Below are positions 38 through 56,900 of a stretch of 64,000 nucleotides of DNA, one piece after another. The notes beneath the pieces are model-generated. The model did no database searches, was not told where the DNA came from, and saw only the letters and a program-made list of their open reading frames with translations. Each line of letters begins with the position of its first letter. The first letter of the stretch is position 1. This stretch comes from Hypomesus transpacificus (lineage: Eukaryota; Chordata; Actinopteri; Osmeriformes; Osmeridae), in assembly GCF_021917145.1 (NCBI RefSeq), contig NC_061067.1, positions 2,103,596 through 2,167,595 on the forward strand, given 5' to 3'. The position numbers and the translations under genes were made by a program.

Positions 38-6921
<6,884 letters not shown>

Positions 6922-7508
6922 CCTGAGATCTGTGGCATGAGAAAGTAATACAATCTATTTTTTTAACTGTTTCGATAGTCCTACCAAAGATTACAGAATG
7001 ATATTGGCAATTATTTCACAGTAAAGGAAATTCATAGCTAGGAAATTCAGGCTATAGTAAAGACTGTAAAAATTGTAAGTCTTGCAGAAGTCTGCATTAG
7101 ACTTTAAGCTGCCAATTTATGTTTATTTTGAAAAACCTAAATCAATTTTAAAATTAACTTTGTGGCATTTAGCTTTCACGATAATACAATAATACACAAA
7201 AACTAAAGTGACACATTCTTTCTAAGCCAATTATCAACACAGTACATTGTTCAGACCACACTTCATAGTAAAATGCTGCAGGTGTTTTTTTGTGTTGCAT
7301 CAGTTTTAGAAATGTACAGCACTTTTTACAAGTGCAGTCTCTGATTGTATTTTCAACCATTTAAACATTTATTATCTTGGCCAATTCATACCATCAAATA
7401 AACCTGTTATAATAAATGATACATTAAATTTCAGCTCTAAATCATTGTCTTGCGTCCAGACTGTATCTAAACACATGTATCTATAACTTTCATGGAAGCT
7501 GTTCCTAC

Positions 7509-7707
7509 CTGATGGTGGTTACTTAGACAGAATCTCCTGAAAGTGAAATAGATCTGTAGAGCAATCAAACTATTGATGAGCTCGTAGTTTGCAGAAATAA
7601 ACACTCTTAAATTCAGTCAAAGACAAACGTTGGTATGTTCTCTGCTCTGTCTTCCTCAGGTTGCCTAGTGTCCTTCTTCTCTCTAACCCCCCGTGTCTGT
7701 TTATAAA
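7509..7707 (-). promoter_or_regulatory. Promoter and noncoding leader exons of myosin gene 1
   Basis: A TTTATAAA TATA box lies at 7700-7707. By comparison with gene 2 and the orphan module, leader exon 1 should end after CAACCTGAG (about 7656). Here the following bases are GAAG, not GTAAG, so the canonical donor is missing. A second small leader exon is plausible at 7509-7536, preceded by TTTCAG and followed by GTAGG. The transcription start is inferred from the TATA position only. Confidence 0.6.
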
Positions 7708-8220: not shown

Positions 8221-8365
8221 CTGAAAGCCCCATGTTCACCCCCTGTAAACAGGCAGCAGCTGCCATAACTAATTAATCAGAAGAGAGAACATCTCATGTC
8301 ATATTAAGAAATATCTTTTTGCTGCACATCGGCAGGCACATGTCAACCCACTCAAGTAACCTGGG
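8221..8365 (-). promoter_or_regulatory. Upstream block shared with the orphan myosin module
   Basis: This block about 0.5-0.65 kb upstream of the gene 1 TATA box is recognisably similar to 12710-12855. Shared pieces include GAAAGCCC, TTCACCC, a CAGCTG E-box (8257-8262) and CACATGTCAACCC with a nearby TCAA-TAACCTG. CAGCTG is the preferred E-box of myogenic bHLH factors, so a muscle enhancer role is plausible. The conservation may also simply reflect duplication. Confidence 0.45.
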
Positions 8366-9869: not shown

Positions 9870-10296
9870 TGATTTTTTACGTTGTACGTTATGGATGAGA
9901 CAGAGGGAGTTGGCGATGTCGACCTGACTGAGAGTAGAGACATTCCTGATCACCCATGGCCATAATGAGGGAGATGTTCGAAATTGTTGATGTCAAAAAG
10001 GATTCCTGGCGAATGTGCATGTCTATTGTGTATTTTTGTATTAATGTATTAATATGAGTTAATATGAATATAGTGTGAGGTCCAATTACCTGCGATAATA
10101 TGATATGAGGTCCAACAGCTGGTAGTAATGGCAACTTTTGACGTCAGTATATGTCAGGGCCCACACTTCTTTACTTTACCTTGAGTGGAAAAGTGTAGTC
10201 AGCACTTCAACTTTTACCAGTCTTTTTAAACATGAGTATCTGTACTTCATCCTTAAGTGAAGGATATGTACTTTTGCCATCTCTATTGTTTTGCTG
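9870..10296 (-). repeat. Interspersed repeat, left inverted copy flanking the orphan myosin module
   Basis: Read on the minus strand, this stretch matches 12861-13080 read on the plus strand. Shared pieces include GAGATGGCAAA, GTACAGATACTCATG (GTGC- in the other copy), AAAAAGACTGGTAAAAGTTG, GGAATCCTTTTTGACA, CCATGGGTGATCAGGAATGT and CTCTGTCTCATCCAT. The two copies face each other across the orphan promoter and exon. It looks like a dispersed teleost element of unknown class. Confidence 0.7.
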
Positions 10297-10613
10297 TTAG
10301 TTAGCTAGCCAGCATTTCACCTAAAACTAGACTGTTTCAAACTATTGGGCCAGCGTCCTACTTTCTACTATACAAATGGATAAAGTTGGAGTTGATTGTG
10401 CACCTCCTCCCTTCAAATACTGTGATAAAACGAATTGACGACTGATTCAGGTGGCATATTGGTGGAAAAGGGCCGCAAAAAATGCTGACAGCTCATCCAA
10501 ACAATGTCATCCATTGCCATTCTTGTGATAATGATTCCCATGTACTTTTAAAGGGTGGTAGAGCTGCTCTCATCTGCATTGGGTTTAATCACTATGTGTT
10601 GTGTTGTACATAC

Positions 10614-10814
10614 CTTCCCAAACTCAGTTTCAGCTGTAACTTTGTCCCCATCAGTACTGCTTATTAGTGCCTTGACGTACTCAACCTCTGGGTCAGGCAC
10701 AAAGCAGTTCTTCTTCATGTCAAAATAACGAGTCTGGGCCTCCAGACGTTCCTTGTCTGACTTCCTCAGAAAAGGAGCTGCTGTCCCAAACTCTGCCATC
10801 AAGGCGTCCCCCAT
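10614..10814 (-). CDS. Orphan myosin heavy chain first coding exon (alternative first exon or remnant gene)
   Basis: A 67-codon exon starting [18 protein letters not shown], nearly identical to the first coding exons of gene 1 (6721-6921) and gene 2 (24028-24228). It has an intact ATG (10812-10814), a preceding acceptor (GCAG then ATCTCAGG) and an intact GTATG donor. No further myosin exon lies between it and gene 1. Protein differences from gene 1 are five: T for A at residue 11, then K, T, A and F near residues 48-64. Most nucleotide differences lie in the last 60 bases, and the first 140 are almost identical. It also has its own TATA and leader exon. It could splice to gene 1 exon 2 as an alternative start, or be the stub of a deleted myosin gene. 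The sequence alone cannot decide. Confidence 0.6.
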
Positions 10815-11553
10815 CCTGAGATCTGCATCTTGATCAGAACGAGAAAGAAATATATTTTGTTTCATAAAACCTTTTGACAGATATACAAATTAACACAGTA
10901 TGATATTGGCATGAGATGCTCGTAAGGAAAAGTCACTGAAGATAGAATTAAGACTATATTCAGGTTAGAATCCGGCCTAACCCTATGCTGCATGTCTTTC
11001 CCTCTCACTCTCTGCCTTTCCTGTCACACTGCACCTAAAAACTGCCATTAAAGCAAAACAATTGACTAAAAACATCTCAAATGTTTTAACATTCTTGAAA
11101 AAGTCAAAGTTAGACTCTAAACTGCCTCTTTATGTACCTCGTTAATCCTATAGTAATAATAACATGTACATTAAATAGCATTTTGTTTATATAGTAATAA
11201 AAAGCTTTTATTAAAAAATTATTGATGAACATTGTTCATGCAGCCCCTTATTGTAAAGAAATGCAGATTAATTGTTTATTGTGTATCAATTTGAGAATTT
11301 TGGAAATGTACAGTCTACTTCTACTTTTAACATCACTGACAAACAGTGGTGTTTCATAAAGCATTGTAATGGTCAACTCGTGCTCAAAATTTCCCTTTTT
11401 AATTAATTTTTACCCCTGTAACTCAGAATGAAATATATAAAGAACTACTTACCAGCTCATTGTTTTGATATTTACCCATATCCCCTGATAAAGTTGTCAG
11501 ACGAATGTGTGTTTCTCTGACAGGTTTCTATGCCCTGTCTCTTATGTTCTTAC

Positions 11554-11603
11554 CAGGTTGTCGAGTGTCTCTCTCCTCTCCAGCGCTGCAGCCTGTTTAT
11601 AAA
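11554..11603 (-). promoter_or_regulatory. TATA box and leader exon of the orphan myosin module
   Basis: A TATA box (TTTATAAA, 11596-11603) is followed on the minus strand by a leader sequence ending CTCGACAACCTG, then a canonical GTAAGA donor at 11549-11553. This aligns with the gene 2 leader (CCACCTGAG, then GTAAGA, exon end 24885) and with the gene 1 leader. Unlike gene 1, the donor here is intact. Confidence 0.6.
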
Positions 11604-11649
11604 GGGAGATGTGCTGCTAGACCTATGAGGATCTCTGTTCCGGGAGGCT

Positions 11650-12271
11650 GTCAGGGGGGGCCAGGGGGAGGAGAGACCTGGCTGCTGTCAGGAGGGCAGG
11701 GGGAGGAGAGACCTGGCTGCTGTCAGGGGGGCCAGGGGGAGGAGAGACCTGGCTGCTGTCAGGGGGGGCCAGGGGGAGGAGAGACCTGGCTGCTGTCAGG
11801 GGGGGCAGGGGGGAGGAGAGACCTGGCTGCTGTCAGGAGGGGCCAGGGGGAGGAGAGACCTGGCTGCTGTCAGGAGGGGCCAGGGGGAGGAGAGACCTGG
11901 CTGCTGTCAGGGGGGCCAGGGGGAGGAGAGACCTGGCTGCTGTCAGGAGGGGCCAGGGGGGAGGAGAGACCTGGCTGCTGTCAGAAGGGGCCAGGGGGGA
12001 GGAGAGACCTGGCTGCTGTCAGGGGGGGCAGGGGGAGGAGAGACCTGGCTGCTGTCAGGAGGGCAGGGGGAGGAGAGACCTGGCTGCTGTCAGGAGGGCA
12101 GGGGGAGGAGAGACCTGGCTGCTGTCAGGGGGGGCAGGGGGAGGAGAGACCTGGCTGCTGTCAGGAGGGGCCAGGGGGAGGAGAGACCTGGCTGCTGTCA
12201 GGGGGGGCAGGGGGGAGGAGAGACCTGGCTGCTGTCAGGGGGGGGCAGGGGGAGGAGAGACCTGGCTGCTT
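11650..12271. repeat. G-rich minisatellite, about 17 copies, immediately upstream of the orphan TATA box
   Basis: Units of about 32-36 bp share the core GAGAGACCTGGCTGCTGTCA preceded by a G-rich GGCCAGGGGGAG segment. I count 17 copies of GAGACCTGGCTGCT. A single related copy (GGGTGCCAGGGGGAGGAG, then TGACCTGAGGGC) lies at the equivalent place upstream of gene 1, near 7835-7863, so the array grew from promoter-proximal sequence. The long open frame running through it is a by-product of repetition. Confidence 0.9.
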
Positions 12272-12709
12272 TGAGGAAAAGTAGTTTTGCTGTAACTCTT
12301 AAGTTGACATCATGCGGCTGTTTTACCGTGTAAAGGCTTAACAATTAGTCTTAGTCTTATATTTTTACAATTGTTTGTGTACAAAAGTGTTTTAGTGATT
12401 TCTCTGACTCACTAGTGATGACTAACCAATTTTGCACGTAGTTTTTGAAACATAATAATTTTTTTCGAAGAATCTTGCCTTTCTTGTGCTCCAGGAACCC
12501 ATAGATTTTTAATATGTATACTGTTCCAGCAATTTTCTTACCTCGAGACGAATTGATGCTTGATGTTAACTTTTGTTTGAATATTTTTGCATATTTTCAT
12601 TTTATGAAGGGAGTGTCTATTATCATGCTTGACTTGGCTCAGTTTTCTTTACTTTATCACTGACACAAAGCCATGGCATGTAGAATTGCTTGTCCATGAT
12701 TTATTATAA
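12272..12709. other. A/T-rich spacer upstream of the orphan minisatellite
   Basis: No coding signal, tandem repeat or recognisable element seen. Confidence 0.4.
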
Positions 12710-12855
12710 CATGAAAGCCCAATCTTCACCCTATGATTTTCTAACAGATTAATTGTGACAGCTGTTGCATGTTTACAAAGGTCTCACTGCTCATGAAGAA
12801 ATACATTTTAGATCCACATGGACAAACACATGTCAACCCTCTCAAATAACCTGTG
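12710..12855 (-). promoter_or_regulatory. Upstream block of the orphan module, similar to 8221-8365
   Basis: Shares GAAAGCCC, TTCACCC, a CAGCTG E-box (12759-12764) and CACATGTCAACCC with the block upstream of gene 1. It lies about 1.1-1.25 kb from the orphan TATA box, against about 0.5-0.65 kb in gene 1. The difference of about 0.6 kb is close to the length of the minisatellite, so the rest of the spacing is conserved. Confidence 0.45.
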
Positions 12856-12860
12856 GGCAG

Positions 12861-13080
12861 AGATGGCAAATGTACACATCCTTTACTCGAGTAGAAGTGC
12901 AGATACTCATGTTTAAAAAGACTGGTAAAAGTTGAAGTGCTGACTAATCTTTTTCACTCAATTCCCCATTCCCCAGGAATCCTTTTTGACACAGACCATG
13001 GGTGATCAGGAATGTCAACATCGCTAACTCTGTCTCATCCATTACGTACTTTTTTTTTTTTTTTTTTACCTTTAAAACTT
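12861..13080 (+). repeat. Interspersed repeat, right inverted copy
   Basis: The partner of 9870-10296 in opposite orientation, with the same diagnostic pieces (GAGATGGCAAA, AAAAAGACTGGTAAAAGTTG, CCATGGGTGATCAGGAATGT). It ends in a T-run near 13050-13068. Confidence 0.7.
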
Positions 13081-13408: not shown

Positions 13409-24228
<10,820 letters not shown>

Positions 24229-24935: not shown

Positions 24936-26219
24936 GGATGCTGCAGAGCCTTGTATGGAGATGGACCAATGGGACACTTTATTCTAATAGTTTAAAACAT
25001 CTAAATGGAGGAACAGAGGTGTGTACCAGCTCCCTATAGGCCTCGTGTGGACAGATGACAGGAGGAGAGAGAAGCATTGGCTGGATCCTATAGCCCCGGA
25101 TCCTAATATGGAGTTCCTGTTTTTAGGATGGCTGTAGGTTGAAACAATGGGCAATTTCAAAGACATTTCTTTGTCCCCCCACACCCCCCCCCTACACACA
25201 CACACACACACACACATATCTTTCTCATGACTGTTCTTGGATCCATTGGCATCTTAGAAATGTCATTGGTATGTGTTAAAGCTATCCAATTAAAACTATC
25301 TTTACATTTATATCTTGAAAAATTTTACATTTGCTCTGGATCTAAACTGTGAGAAAGGGTTTCTCTATGGCATGGAGAACATATGATGGCACTTGAATGG
25401 TTGATTGTCATTGTACTTAAAGCCATTGTGTATTCGGATTGGAATTGTAGAGAGATGTGGCCTGCAAGATGGATGCCCCTGTTGTCCATCTTTGTTCACC
25501 AAAGGAAAGTCACTTTTGCCTATTGTCACCAAGACCAGCAGCTATTGTAAGAATAACCCTACTCTTCAGCTTGTTGACACTGCATTGTTTCCTTGCCTTT
25601 ATCCTTGAGGACAAAGATAAACCTGTGAAATAGTTCTTGGAGTCCTCTTACAGCCTGTTAGGCCCTTTGGCGTATGTTAAGGTTGAGACCTTACCCTTCT
25701 CCAGAGGGTTGGCTGTGGCAGCTGCTGTCTGTCTGCAGCACATGGAGGACCACCAGCCACCTTCTCATTAAGACCATGGTAGACATGTACTTAATAGTTT
25801 ATAGATAGGAGACGTACTTGTTTATGCATGAAAGGTTGAATAGTCATGACGAGTTAAGGATTTTTAAATGTTGTGATGTTTAGACTAAAGAGGTTTGGTG
25901 CTATAAATGATTTATTATCTTAAGGGAAATCCTTATGAACAATTACTTAATTACATAGCAAAGTATTATGGTAGGTTTTGCTCTTGAGGTTTTCAAATAG
26001 CCAAGTCATTCTTGAACGTGTTGAGCTAAAGGCTACATGGTGCTATTCTAGAGTGTGTCACACTATTCAAGGTTAAGACAGCTGTCACAGAAGCAATATG
26101 CAGCCAGGGACGTGTCAAACTACTAGGGGTCAGTACTGGAGGTTGTCACCATTGGTCCTGTGAGGGTGCAAGAGAGCTAGATTAGTGGACCATATTGACA
26201 CCCTGTTAAAAAGTCTCCC
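24936..26219. other. Region upstream of myosin gene 2
   Basis: No gene recognised. It holds a C-rich and (CA)n microsatellite at 25178-25216. A CAGCTG E-box lies at 25719-25724, in a position comparable to those upstream of gene 1 and the orphan module. The phrase CCTTGAGGACAAAGATAA (near 25.60 kb) recurs in similar form at 8.15 kb and in the 29.6 kb tandem repeat. Confidence 0.45.
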
Positions 26220-28845
26220 AAAACTGTTTGCCTGTACATCAACCCCAAGTGGTGCAATGGTGCCACTGTCCGCGATCGGATTTGTTTACCGGACATCGAG
26301 CTGTTGTCTGTGTCTGTTAGACCATTCTACCTGCCTAGGGAATTCCCCCAAATATTTCTAACAGTAGTGTACATCCACCCGAAAGCGGACTCCAAAACCG
26401 CTTCTGACGTCATCTTCTCAGTTGCTCAAAGACTTCAATCTATTTCTCCCGATGCCCCTTGCTTCTTCTTTGGTGATTTTAATCATGTCAACTGTAAAAA
26501 GACGCTGAACAGTTTCAACCAGTACGTCAGCTGCCCCACTCGGGGTAACAGAACATTGGATCTCTGCTATGGTTCTATCAAGGGAGCCTATAAGTCTGTG
26601 GTAGGTCCCCCTATTGGTTTTTCTGACCACAACGTGGTGCACCTACTCCCCACATACAGACCTGTGCTGCAGAGAGTCAAAATGCAGACATGTGTGGTCC
26701 AGGTGTGGAATGAGGAGAGCACTGTGGCCCTACAGGGCTGCTTTGACTGTACCGACTGGTCCGCCCTTCAGGATTCATGCGGCAGCATTGATGAACTGAC
26801 AGATGTTGTATGCAGCTACATCTCTTTCTGTGTGGACAGTGTAATCCCAACTAAGACAATTGTTTCTTACCCCAATAATAAGCCTTGGATATCTACGGAA
26901 CTGAAAAATCTATTGAGGGAAAAGAGGACTATTTTTAATAGTGGTGACAAGATTGTATATGCTGAAATCAGGAAGGTTGTGCGGGCTGAAATTGTAAAGG
27001 TTAAACTTAGTATAAGAGTAAAATCGAGTCTAAATTTAGGGAGTCGGACCTCAGATCTGTGTGGAACGGCATGAAATTGATGACAGGCCTACATAAAGGC
27101 AGTAACTCTCTCTCCTTAAATGATTTTAATTCAGACGAGCAGCTAGCAAATGAATTAAACTGTTTTTATATGAGATTTTCTAATTGTGATTTTAGTGAGA
27201 GAATTAGTCACATGCGTAATATTGATGTCTCTAAGGTTGAAATATTATTTAAACAAATTAAGGTTAGGAAAAGTCCTGGCCCTGATAACATCAGTGGTCG
27301 TGTGCTTAAGTCCTGTGCTGGTCAGTTAAGTGAGATTTTCAAAGTGATTTTTACTCAATCCTTCCAGACGCAAACAGTGCCAAGAATCTGGAAACATTCT
27401 ATCATCATTCCTGTGGCTAAGTGTAACAATCCCAAAATCTTGAATGACTTTCGACCTGTAGCTCTTACCACATTGGAGATGAAAACCTTTGAGAAGTTGG
27501 TTAAGCAGGTGTTATTGGAGCAGGTGGAGAAACAGTTAGATCCACTACAGTTTGCTTATAGGGCTAGCAGAGGTGTTGAGGATGCAAAACTTGCCTTGTT
27601 AAATTCTCTGTATAAACATCTGGAGGCCCCAAAAACTCATGCTAGGCTCCTTTTTATCGATGTTTCATCAGCATTCAACACTATTCAGCCTGACTGGTTG
27701 GCTGAGAAACTCCAGGCTCTTTTTAACATGAATTTTACCCTAATTGGCTGGTTACTGGACTTTCTGACAGATAGGTCACAGTGTGTGAGGGTTAATGGTG
27801 CCTTATCCTCTAAAGTCCTTTGTTCCACAGGCTCTCCTCAGGGCTGTGTCCTTTCACCATTGCTTTTTATTTTATATACTAATGACTGTAGGAGTAGGTA
27901 TGAGAATAGGCAATGTGTGAAGTTTGCAGATGACACAGTTATAGTGAGCCTTTTAAACAATGAGGAGGAGGGGCATGGTCCTGTTGTTGATGATTTCATT
28001 GTTTGGTGTGATAACTTTTGTTTGTCTATCAATGTTTCTAAGACCAAGGATGTGATTTTTGATTTCCGGAAGTCACAGCATAATGTTACGCACACTGTTA
28101 TTCATAACAAGAATGTTGACATTGTAGCTGAATATAAATATTTAGGAACCATCATTGACAACAAACTATCTTTTGAGAGCAATACTGAGGCTGTTTGTAA
28201 AAAGTCCCAACAGAGACTTCTTAGGAAGATGAAATCATTCAGGGTGTGCACGACTTTGATGACTTTGTTTTTCCAGTGTTTTATTGAATCTGTCTTGACA
28301 TTTGGCATTGTGGTGTGGTACAGTGGTCTTCCAATGATCAGCAAGCGTAAGCTTACAAAGCTGGTTAATGTAGCATCTAAGGTGGTTGGGGTACAGTTAG
28401 CCCAGTTGCAAGATATATATGATAAACGAGTTATGGGTAAGGCTAAACACATTTTAAACTGCCCTGACCACCCACTTTTCGGAGAGTTTGATTTGCTCCC
28501 TTCTGGTTGTCGTTTTAGGCTACCTAGGTTAAGAACTGGTCGTGCCAGAGATTATTTCATTCCTGTGGCTATTAGGAACCTAAATTCACTTGACCGACCT
28601 CATGATGTTTTTTAAAATTTAGTTATTTATTTATTTCCTGCCAATGGCCATTACTGTCCCAATTGGACCATGCCATGGGGTTTGGGGGAAGGTGTGTCTG
28701 TATTGTGTGTTCTGTGTGGTGTAATGTTGTTGGCATTTGGCGCTGTTCTGTGTTTGTGCATGTGTTTCTAACCCCTGCTGCACACTAATTTCCTTTTGAA
28801 GGATAAATAAAGTTGAAAGTTAAAAAAAGTTAAAAGTTAAAATTA
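26220..28845 (+). mobile_element. 5'-truncated non-LTR retrotransposon (CR1/L2 superfamily LINE)
   Basis: Contains the end of an AP-endonuclease domain, a linker and a reverse transcriptase with its C-terminal region. It is followed by a short 3' UTR and a tail of GTTAAAA-type repeats (28.80-28.84 kb). Endonuclease-like sequence begins abruptly near 26.22 kb, typical of 5' truncation on insertion. It lies upstream of myosin gene 2, on the opposite strand. Confidence 0.88.
26235..28615 (+). pseudogene. LINE ORF2-like protein: endonuclease fragment plus reverse transcriptase, one frameshift
   Basis: The upstream frame (26235-27074) shows AP-endonuclease motifs: VVYIHP, FFFGDFNH and GFSDHNVV. 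The downstream frame (27059-28615 as an open frame) shows RT motifs: KSPGPDNISG, DFRPVALT, LFIDVSSAFNTI, GSPQGCVLSPLLF and the catalytic FADDT. It then has EYKYLGTIID and the C-terminal LPSGCRFRLPRLRT typical of CR1/L2-group elements. The two frames join around 27010, where one base appears to be missing in the basic linker. Otherwise the RT frame is open to its stop, so the element is fairly young but 5'-truncated and not autonomous. Confidence 0.85.
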
Positions 28846-41692: not shown

Positions 41693-42636
41693 TCAGCTGC
41701 CCCCCCTGCCCAGCCTGTCCCCCATAGGGCGGCTAGGGAGGTGTGACAGGGAGCGCCTGAGGTTCTCCAGTTCTTGCGTGAGCTGACCGATCAGCCCCTG
41801 CAGCCTGCGGTTCTCGTCCTCCAGCTGCAGGGCCCGGTGCTGCGTGAGCTGGATGCGCCTGCGGGCCTTGTCCCGGCTCTTCCTCACCGCAATGTTGTTC
41901 CTCTCACGCCTCAGACGGTACTCCACACTGTCCTTGCTGAAACCTCTCTTCTGTGTGGAGCCTCGAGCGGGGCCGGGAGGGGAGGGCAGAAGGAAGGGAG
42001 AGAACTCCTGGAGGAGGAAGGGTGGGGGAGGGGGGGGGTGGGGGAGGGGGGGGGGTGGGGGAGGGGGGGATGGAGGGAGAGGAGGAGGAACAGGGGGATG
42101 AAGGGGGGATCAGATTGGCAGATTATTTTTGTAAAGTATTATTTTATACTAAATTCTTACATGCGGTCCCCTGGCCTTCACCTAAATACTGTCAACTAAG
42201 TATTGCCTCATTACTTTGTTCATTACATCGTTGAACAGTTAATAGATTAGACCACAGCAGGGCTGTAGTTCTTCTATTCAGCATAAGCATCCCAAGTGAT
42301 GAAGTAGGTCAGTACCTGCTGCATGAGGCTGCTCTGGTGGCTTGATGTCACCGTGTTCGAAGGGTTGAGACAAGGTGTGTAGGACAAGTACGACAGTCCC
42401 ATCAAATGCTCAGCCACTCGGTCATTCCCTGTCCTGGCCAATCCCGAGCTGCCCTCGGACTGGCCGCATGGCATCCCTTCCATCTGAGGCAGGTGATTGG
42501 CCAGGTACGTGGCGGTGGAGGGGTTAGGGGTGAAAGCCAGGCTGGAGGGGTTAGAGGTGAGACTGCAGGAGGAGAAAGAGGCCGGAAGTAGGTGCATGTA
42601 ATCAGGGTTCACCGAAGACTGCTTTGATTCCGACAT
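41693..42636 (-). CDS. cebpe: CCAAT/enhancer-binding protein, epsilon-like (fish cebp1/cebpe type)
   Basis: bZIP transcription factor. Mammalian C/EBP-epsilon drives granulocyte maturation and binds CCAAT-like sites as a dimer. Exon 42316-42636 (107 codons, MSESKQSS start) ends SLMQQ before GTACTG. Exon 41693-42007 starts EFSPFLLP after CTCCTCCAG and runs to the stop, giving 211 residues. The C-terminus has the C/EBP basic region [19 protein letters not shown] and a leucine zipper ([22 protein letters not shown]). A coding intron matches CEBPE, whereas CEBPA, CEBPB and CEBPD are intronless. Linkage to slc22a17 and pabpn1 also matches human CEBPE. The zipper is divergent, which fits the fish-specific cebp1 name, so the exact symbol is uncertain. 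The acceptor TTCTGCAG directly precedes the ATG, implying a noncoding first exon. Confidence 0.85.
42008..42085. repeat. G-rich tract beside the C/EBP coding acceptor
   Basis: Repeated GGGTGGGGGAGGGGG on the plus strand. On the coding strand it is a C-rich polypyrimidine tract leading into the acceptor at 42008-42010. It has G-quadruplex/i-motif potential. Confidence 0.7.
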
Positions 42637-53900: not shown

Positions 53901-56900
53901 GGGAGACAGGATGACATGTAAAGGATGACATGTAAAGAATGACCCGGGCCGGATTCGAAACTGGTGGCTGTGATTAGCCCTTAGCCTTAGGTGAGTTCTC
54001 CACACGTTTGTGCCGCATACCGACAGACGTTGAGGATGTTTGAAATATCTGTGCTCCAAACCCTACACCCTCCATATCTGTGCTCCACACCCTCCATATC
54101 TGTGCTCCAAACCCTACACCCTCCATATCTGTGCTCCAAACCCTACTCCCTCCATATCTGTGCTCCACACCCTACACCCTCCATATCTGTGCTCCACACC
54201 CTCCATATCTGTGCTCCAAACCCTCCATATCTGTGCTCCACACCCTACACCCTCCATATCTGTGCTCCAAACCCTACACCCTCCATATCTGTGCTCCACA
54301 CCCTACACCCTCCATATCTGTGCTCCACACCCTCCATATCTGTGCTCCAAACCCTACACCCTCCATATCTGTGCTCCAAACCCTACACCCTCCATATCTG
54401 TGCTCCACACCCTACACCCTCCATATCTGTGCTCCACACCCTCCATATCTGTGCTCCACACCCTCCATATCTGTGCTCCACACCCTACACCCTCCATATC
54501 TGTGCTCCAAACCCTACACCCTCCATATCTGTGCTCCACACCCTACACCCTCAAGAGTTGTGCTTTTCTCAGCCGTGGCCATTTTGAAACAGCCGTGTCA
54601 AACGTACTTCTCCAGTACCAGGGTGTCTAAAGGTATAAACAAGTTAAATTTAAGACTTTTTAATACCACTTCTAAATGAAATTTAAGACCAAACTTACAA
54701 TGGAAATACAGATCAAAAGTGGAAATTTACAGTCATCTTTCCACATAAACACACTGATGTCTGTTCAAAATTAACACCAACCTTAACCACAAATACTAGT
54801 TCTTTTCAAGCCATTTGTTATTGAACTTGCATTTCCCCATGTTTCTAAGTTGAGTGGCTATCAACCTGTATTATCTGTATTGCCGATGCTTAACGTCATC
54901 AAAAGCTGCGCAGTTGGCTACGCTCTGACCTAACCATAGACAACGCAGCGCATAGCCTACCGGAAAAAAATATTTGACCTGGCAGAACAGATTGTCTGCA
55001 TTTTTGCAGTGACATTCCCCCCGAGGCAAGTAGGGTGAAGTGCCTTGCCCAAGGACACAACGTCATTTGGCACGGCCGGGGAATCGATCTGGCAACCTGA
55101 GTACATAGGACCCTGGTCCTACACACCAGTGGTCTGCTACCCTCCTGATCTCAACATGGACAAAATCATATTTGAAGTGTTCATGACATTAGAAATGTAA
55201 TATCATGTAAACAATGATATTACATCTCATGTGGATTCTCTCCTCACCTTTATCTGTCTTCCTCGAAACAGAGACTCGTCCAAGGCCATGGCTGTCCTTA
55301 CAGACTCCTTGTCTGCAAACTCTATATACGCAAACCTGCAACAGATGCACAAACAGCTCATGTTATAACCCAGAGTGTGGCTGGGGTGCAGGCATCCAGC
55401 CACTCCCCACCGAGGGGAGAGAAAACAGAGAGCAAGACAGGAGACAGTGAGGAGAGAGACAGCACCAGAGAGGAGACAGTGAGGAGAGAGACAGCACCAG
55501 GGAGGAGACAGTGAGGAGAGACACAGCACCAGAGAGGAGACAGTGAGGAGAGACAGCACCAGAGAGGAGACAGTGTGGAGAGAGACAGCACCAGAGAGGA
55601 GACAGTGAGGAGAGAGACAGCACCAGAGAGGAGACAGTGAGGAGAGAGACAGCACCAGAGAGGAGACAGTGAGGAGAGAGACAGCACCAGAGAGGAGACA
55701 GTGAGGAGAGAGACAGCACCAGAGAGGAGACAATAAGGAGAGACAGCACCAGAGAGGAGACAGGAGAGAGTGAGAGTAGAAGCCGATCAGAAGAGAAAGG
55801 AGAGAGTAGAGAGAGCAATGAGAGAAAGAGAGAAGGCGGGAGAGAGCAGAGGCAGAAAGAGAGCAAGGAGAACTCGAGGAAGCAGCGAAAGGAGAGAGCG
55901 AACAGAGGAGAGCCAGGAGTGAGCGTGTACTGACCCTTTGGGATGCCCTGTGAACTTGTCACACAGGATGGTGACTCTGTTGACAGAGCCGCAGCCATGG
56001 AAGTGAGCCTCCAGTTCCTCTGCTGTGGCCCCATAGTCCACCTACACACACACACACACACACTTAACAACTGCACACACTCTCTATACATGTAGGATGG
56101 TAGGCCTCATCAGGGCCATGGTAATTTAACAGCTAAACATGCAAGACTCGGATCGTAACAGAAGATTAGGCTGGATACGGATGTTGTCTACAAGAGAAAA
56201 TGTCTTACGTTTCCTACGTAGATCGAGCGCCCATCAGCTTCCATCTTCTCCTCTATGGACATTATGACAGGACCAGCTGGAGAAAACCATTTAGAGCCGT
56301 TACTAAAAATACATTTATTTTTACAAGTTGATGCTAATCCACCACGACAACTCAACCTAAAGGTGCAGGAGGGAACTTTCAAAAATCAGTTCAAATACGA
56401 GAAACGGCACCCATAATTCTTGGCATAGATCATTGGATCATCACAGCCGAGTGCTTGGTGGTCCAACGAATGCAGGTAAAAAGTTAGACGGACATATGAA
56501 CCGCGGAAAGGGGGATGAAGGGTAAGAAGGCACTAGCCAGCTACGATGTTTTCGCAACAAGGTTTTGTCAACACCTACACAGCCACAGCCACACGCAAAA
56601 GCATTCAGTCCCACATTTGCTACTGAGAAAGTTGCAAACTTTAATTCCTGTCTGTATCACAGCGAGCTAGCGTAGCGAGCTAGGCGTAGCGTTCCTCCCT
56701 GAAGGCGTGTCATCTCTGGGATTGGGAGGGGCAGAAGCTCAGGGCTGTTATGGTGTCTGGGCCGTCTTGCAGAATGTAGAGGCACCAACTTGATTAACAA
56801 CCAACCATTCAGTTTGTGATGCGTACAGTACCGGACAGTTAGTGATGCGTACAGTACCGGACAGTTAGTGATGCGTACAGTACCGGACAGTTAGTGATGC

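Follow-up and report, generated by a model that had tools for sequence, protein, structure and literature searches.

Truncated tandem duplicates, i.e., unprocessed pseudogene fragments, occur in gene arrays. Among myosin loci, a tandem array of slow myosin (smyhc) genes with at least four members is described for zebrafish in the excerpt consulted of PMC10713478. For the stickleback MYH3C array, the excerpted preprint reports a varying copy number and a unit of about 17.6 kb that was duplicated and also contains incomplete copies of neighbours, and microhomology-mediated repair together with non-allelic recombination is proposed there for these changes (PMC12776057, preprint). At the mouse fast myosin locus, according to the excerpt of PMC8873246, the promoters interact with a super-enhancer and one promoter is active per nucleus. 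Here, we describe a myosin promoter with a first coding exon that stands alone between two complete genes of a fish myosin array. It is rather likely that this module represents the truncated 5' end of a further array member, “gene O”, the gene body of which was deleted. The orphan is probably a commonplace relic and not an additional switch of the neighbouring gene.

The myosin array and its orphan gene start

The window, i.e., the whole stretch of 64,000 nucleotides that was analysed, corresponds to C8:2103596-2167595 in a 437-Mb genome, and 100 kb below and 20 kb above it were fetched in addition. Positions without prefix refer to the window and equal the “ctg” position minus 100000, the latter being the C8 position minus 2003595. 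On the minus strand, seven myosin heavy chain genes lie in tandem, here lettered A to G by increasing coordinate, and spliced alignment gave 36 coding exons without any stop or frameshift for each of them, with 1929-1930 residues aligned per gene and reaching near the C-terminus. The orphan is located between gene F and gene G (13824..24228, minus strand), which are gene 1 and gene 2, respectively, of an earlier sequence-only reading. Both had rightly been taken as complete there, the low end of the window cutting gene F, part of which lies outside. On the minus strand, gene F has its TATA box and leader at 7509..7706, with the first leader donor missing and the second (GT at 7508) kept, its first coding exon at 6721..6929, the acceptor of which is the first coding-exon acceptor of F located 3' of the orphan, and, by spliced alignment, its coding exon 2 at 6412..6555, which had been placed “near 6556” and starts at 6555. 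Among solved structures (PDB), Myosin-7 chains are the best match of the orphan exon, and we read the name Myosin-7-like as the slow/cardiac myosin type. By the name of this best structure match, the array can be classed as one of slow-muscle-type (Myosin-7-like), i.e., slow/cardiac genes. Elsewhere in the window there are retrotransposon-like frames at 26199-28615 (plus strand), the second of which has a reverse transcriptase domain (RVT_1, 6.6e-31), a bZIP gene at 41693-42106 (minus strand), and a frame at about 55227-55400 (minus strand) that has no Pfam match and that we take to resemble PABPN1; the bZIP gene and the PABPN1-like frame presumably recall the mammalian MYH6/MYH7 neighbourhood. 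Outside of the array, a myosin heavy chain gene without introns, with a single open frame of 1931 codons from ATG, was seen at C6:12348042-12350066, of which a literature search in titles found no clear report.

The orphan comprises, on the minus strand, a TATA box (TTTATAAA / TTTATAAACAGG) at 11592..11603, starting at 11603, a predicted leader exon 1 at 11554..11573, whose start is assumed to lie about 30 nt from the TATA box, a leader intron at 10823..11553, and a first coding exon at 10614..10822 with its ATG at 10814. As for all genes and orphans discussed here, the leader exons were inferred from sequence. The leader donor, with its GT at 11553, reads CTG followed by GTAAGAAC; a GT near 11452 was dropped as leader donor, since the sister genes do not conserve that GT. 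The acceptor of the coding exon, just before 10822, reads ATGCAG followed by ATCTCAGG, and 67 codons are open from 10814 to 10614, ending in phase 0 at the donor GTATGT. The sequence-only reading had named the TATA box, the leader donor and an open first coding exon with acceptor and donor, all of which were found in place on this strand. Exon 1 of every one of the seven array genes matches the orphan exon with 94-97% identity over 212-213 bases, at E values of 2.7e-87 or better, and by identity and E chance is ruled out for this likeness to a myosin exon 1. Genome-wide, 11 matches are listed, nine of which are close and lie on C8, namely two at 100% and those in the seven genes at 94-97%, and the remaining two are on C10 with 77% and 80%. 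The orphan of the window (O1) has a second copy (O2), which is treated below. Both carry Thr at residue 54, where all seven genes and the PDB Myosin-7 chains have Arg, and Ala at residue 61, as do gene D and Myosin-7. Counts of nonsynonymous and synonymous substitutions in exon 1 were not taken as evidence, since they are very small, differ little from those among the live genes, and vary with the order in which they are computed.

The module had further been described as standing alone, which agrees with a scan of 184 kb around the array with low-complexity filtering on: neither a further myosin exon nor any other myosin fragment was detected at E<=1e-4 between the orphan and gene F, and a 3' end of the putative gene O was sought in this interval and not found. 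Past the orphan donor, seven AATAAA or ATTAAA motifs lie within 2.85 kb. By itself the orphan probably yields no protein, and if its promoter fires, a short transcript or an early-stop spliced RNA would be the likeliest products.

Missing parts, flanks and remains of other genes

Leader donor 1 is present in A, B, C, D, and G at 49-52 nt from the TATA box and donor 2 in all seven genes at 196-254 nt, whereas both orphans keep donor 1 (48 nt from TATA) and lack donor 2. Consistently, alignment and donor scan place no counterpart of the sisters' second leader exon in the orphan leader intron. Also absent in both orphans is a proximal promoter stretch of 68-76 bp between a conserved proximal element and the TATA box, which is present in all five genes aligned (A, B, C, E, and F, with D and G outside the alignment). 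By comparison with its sisters, the orphan is thus incomplete in leader and promoter. Such losses are signs of decay, yet the coding exon has neither a stop nor a frameshift. Loss of a leader part is moreover not confined to the orphans, as the live genes E and F are each short of a donor: both have lost donor 1 and kept donor 2, and their leader probably runs on to the latter.

Downstream of the coding exon, the alignment with genes A, B, C, E, and F breaks off abruptly at 10599, 15 bp into intron 1, with 10599..10613 (minus strand) as the final alignable piece. It is followed by a spacer of about 280 bp (10322..10598, minus strand), which genome-wide is found only beside the two orphans (two of six matches cover it, with 100% and 93%), and then by a dispersed, TE-like repeat (9884..10321, minus strand). 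Part of the latter is inverted relative to 12858-12991, where a repeat copy on the plus strand (12858..12991) lies in inverted orientation to the copy at about 10320. Capture of the module by a transposon between these inverted repeats was not adopted, as the module is outside both copies and in normal array order, and a repeat like those flanking O1 was sought upstream of O2 (ctg 91750-92500) and not found. An assembly artefact is thought to be unlikely as well, because the break point is shared by two copies whose flanks differ and which have clearly diverged, and because the spacer has just these two places in the genome.

Upstream of the orphan, a minisatellite with 17 copies of a 37-bp unit (11647..12270) stems from the proximal promoter element that is single in sister promoters. 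Further upstream lie a myosin gene scrap covering the last part of intron 30 and the first part of exon 31 (12469..12543, minus strand), which is found upstream of both orphans, and a distal block (12611..12856, minus strand) that aligns to that of gene C with 86.8% identity. An upstream match to gene 1 had been claimed and does exist, but it is weak (76%, 12782-12853 vs. 8292-8363) and surpassed by the one to gene C. This patchwork of gene-C-like block, exon 31 scrap and minisatellite would suit a module that was never part of a whole gene, its promoter and first exon alone having been copied in by a replication-based rearrangement, and so would the copy changes of stickleback MYH genes, for which the excerpt of PMC12776057 describes partial neighbour copies at unit ends. 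We regard this origin as quite improbable. The orphan leader intron and the live genes share no more than short pieces of about 73-86% identity, a level similar to that between genes F and A (72.7% over 629 columns), and it is therefore not a recent copy of a live gene start. The distance from gene G, too, fits a normal array member, since 1.8 kb separate the conserved block at the 3' end of gene G from the orphan TATA box, compared with 2.0 kb before B, 2.2 kb before C, and 5.6-5.9 kb for A and D.

Remains of other dead genes are present in the array. One of them, at C8:2033689-2034666 upstream of gene A, retains the beginning of exon 1 and parts of exons 19, 32, and 34 in collinear order. 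Beside O2 (C8:2095461-2095777) there are a 28-bp piece resembling the gene D leader region, an exon 1 tail that continues into intron 1, and the beginning of exon 33. These scraps suggest that genes are lost from the array through deletion, and a bare start would be one stage of this loss. A deleted gene that left its start behind, one of the two options of the sequence-only reading, is thus supported by the array setting, the abrupt homology end in intron 1, the loss of leader and promoter parts and these other relics. As expected for a truncated duplicate, exon 1 identity is high, both splice sites and the leader intron are present, and the gene body is missing before gene F. Counterpoints are that both copies retain an intact frame, TATA box, leader donor, acceptor, and exon donor and that a complete gene stands downstream of each, and it also counts against a relic that no complete ancestral gene O is known. 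How far the intactness weighs was modelled with an indel rate of 0.12 per substitution, a frameshifting share of 80% among the indels, and 23 key bases: the exon and its signals would survive unselected with P of 0.59, 0.35, 0.20, and 0.07 at 1, 2, 3, and 5% divergence, respectively, and of 0.01 or less at 8% and above. On this model, the intact frame by itself decides nothing. The orphan exon may also have been renewed through exchange with live genes.

The second copy and probable exchange within the array

The module occurs twice in the genome. The second one is located at C8:2093574-2093786, 20.6 kb from O1, and its first coding exon agrees with that of O1 in 213 bases and in 67 of 67 amino acids. 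O2 lies 2.6 kb upstream of exon 1 of gene E and has its own TATA box and leader donor. Around O1 and O2, 2327 aligned columns show 97.6% identity, and for the flanks after genes F and E the value is 99.4% over 4926 columns. Judged by these identities, orphan and gene together form a tandemly duplicated unit of about 20 kb. Identity between the E and F units is mosaic. The last part of the gene and the flank (ctg 101849-93049) have nearly no differences, the first gene part and promoter have 145 mismatches in 4073 columns (0 to 27 per 200 bases), and the stretch in between has 48 mismatches in 592 columns. Comparing O1 with O2, only 2 differences are found in the 1033 bp from 11646 to 10614, i.e., up to the donor, and 18 in the 730 bp past it (10613 to 9884), mostly in the first 175 bp; against an even spread this has a P of 9e-6, or of 0.025 without the densest 175 bp. 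This boundary of identity at the donor is the strongest sign of constraint that was found, and it could mean constraint. The near-identity was not adopted as proof of selection, however, and gene conversion seems preferable, because the leader intron is as invariant as the coding exon and similar tracts occur elsewhere in the mosaic E and F units.

For the favoured deletion of gene O, the following course can be assumed. Recombination or repair between array repeats would have cut out gene O between intron 1 and a point beyond its 3' end, and its start would have survived by lying outside the deleted stretch. This start was copied together with the complete gene downstream, and gene conversion within the array would then have kept O1 and O2 alike.

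Possible use by the neighbouring genes and known systems

The second option of the sequence-only reading was an alternative promoter and N-terminal exon for gene 1, in which the donor at 10614 is joined to exon 2 of gene F at 6555 and the coding exon of F itself is skipped. The phase at the exon end had been called compatible, and in-silico splicing indeed leaves the hybrid frame open through exon 2; in addition, the signals are intact in both copies and the near-identity of O1 and O2 ends precisely at the donor. Such a fit of phase is nevertheless expected among paralogues, and the coding exon 1 of F, which has a good acceptor and is met first, brings a stop after 74 codons when joined to the orphan exon, so that a full-length hybrid requires regulated skipping of that exon. 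Moreover, the orphan lacks leader exon 2 and part of the promoter, its leader intron shows the same invariance although no constraint is expected there, and the hybrid N-terminus differs from that of gene F in 5 of 67 residues (11, 48, 54, 61, and 65). Taken together, a hybrid myosin of this kind is very unlikely.

A distal promoter that contributes just its leader is also unlikely, if less remote. In this case the orphan donor (11554/11553) would be spliced to leader exon 2 of gene F, whose putative acceptor lies at about 7537 or 7554, or directly to the coding exon of F (6929), and likewise for gene E, giving the ordinary F protein from a second promoter. The donors are complementary in that the orphans keep donor 1 without donor 2, whereas E and F, each with an orphan upstream, keep donor 2 without donor 1; E and F have an identical acceptor-like run ahead of leader exon 2, and in silico the orphan leader joined to the F coding exon leaves the frame open for the normal F protein. 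But the orphan exon with its intact acceptor intervenes and would have to be skipped, E and F have their own TATA box and donor and can be transcribed without an orphan, and the orphan promoter is shortened. More broadly, from the sequence, both orphans might be working distal promoters of F and E, two broken 5' ends complementing each other in cis, or, in a weaker form, decoys that compete for a shared muscle enhancer, to which we assign a low probability. If use in RNA were true, the promoter of a deleted gene would have been adopted by its neighbour.

With the relic of a deleted gene as the preferred reading, one array displays stages of birth and death of motor genes, namely complete genes, a bare start and exon scraps, and it cautions annotators that, within a tandem array, a promoter with a first exon may be intact and still belong to no gene. 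The orphan is of note because its signals are intact, because it was copied together with a live gene next to it and because its leader losses are complementary to those of E and F. A limited search of literature titles found no free-standing myosin promoter with first exon, and absence in print is not claimed. The zebrafish smyhc array resembles the present one in having slow-type myosin heavy chain genes in tandem, likened here by description, and the excerpt of PMC10713478 does not mention a free-standing promoter with first exon. The stickleback MYH3C array is likewise a fish myosin array that changes its copy number, but it is an MYH3C cluster and not Myosin-7-like, and the partial copies in the excerpted preprint are not this gene start (PMC12776057, preprint). 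At the mouse fast locus, myosin promoters are clustered as well, and by its example a promoter without gene body could still matter; the genes described in the excerpt of PMC8873246 are complete, however.

We take the orphan as a truncated tandem duplicate and therewith as an already known kind of fragment, with which it would share the abrupt homology end, the missing body, the partial decay and the intact neighbours. It differs from the usual members of this kind in that its coding exon and splice signals are intact and in that it was copied again together with a live neighbour.
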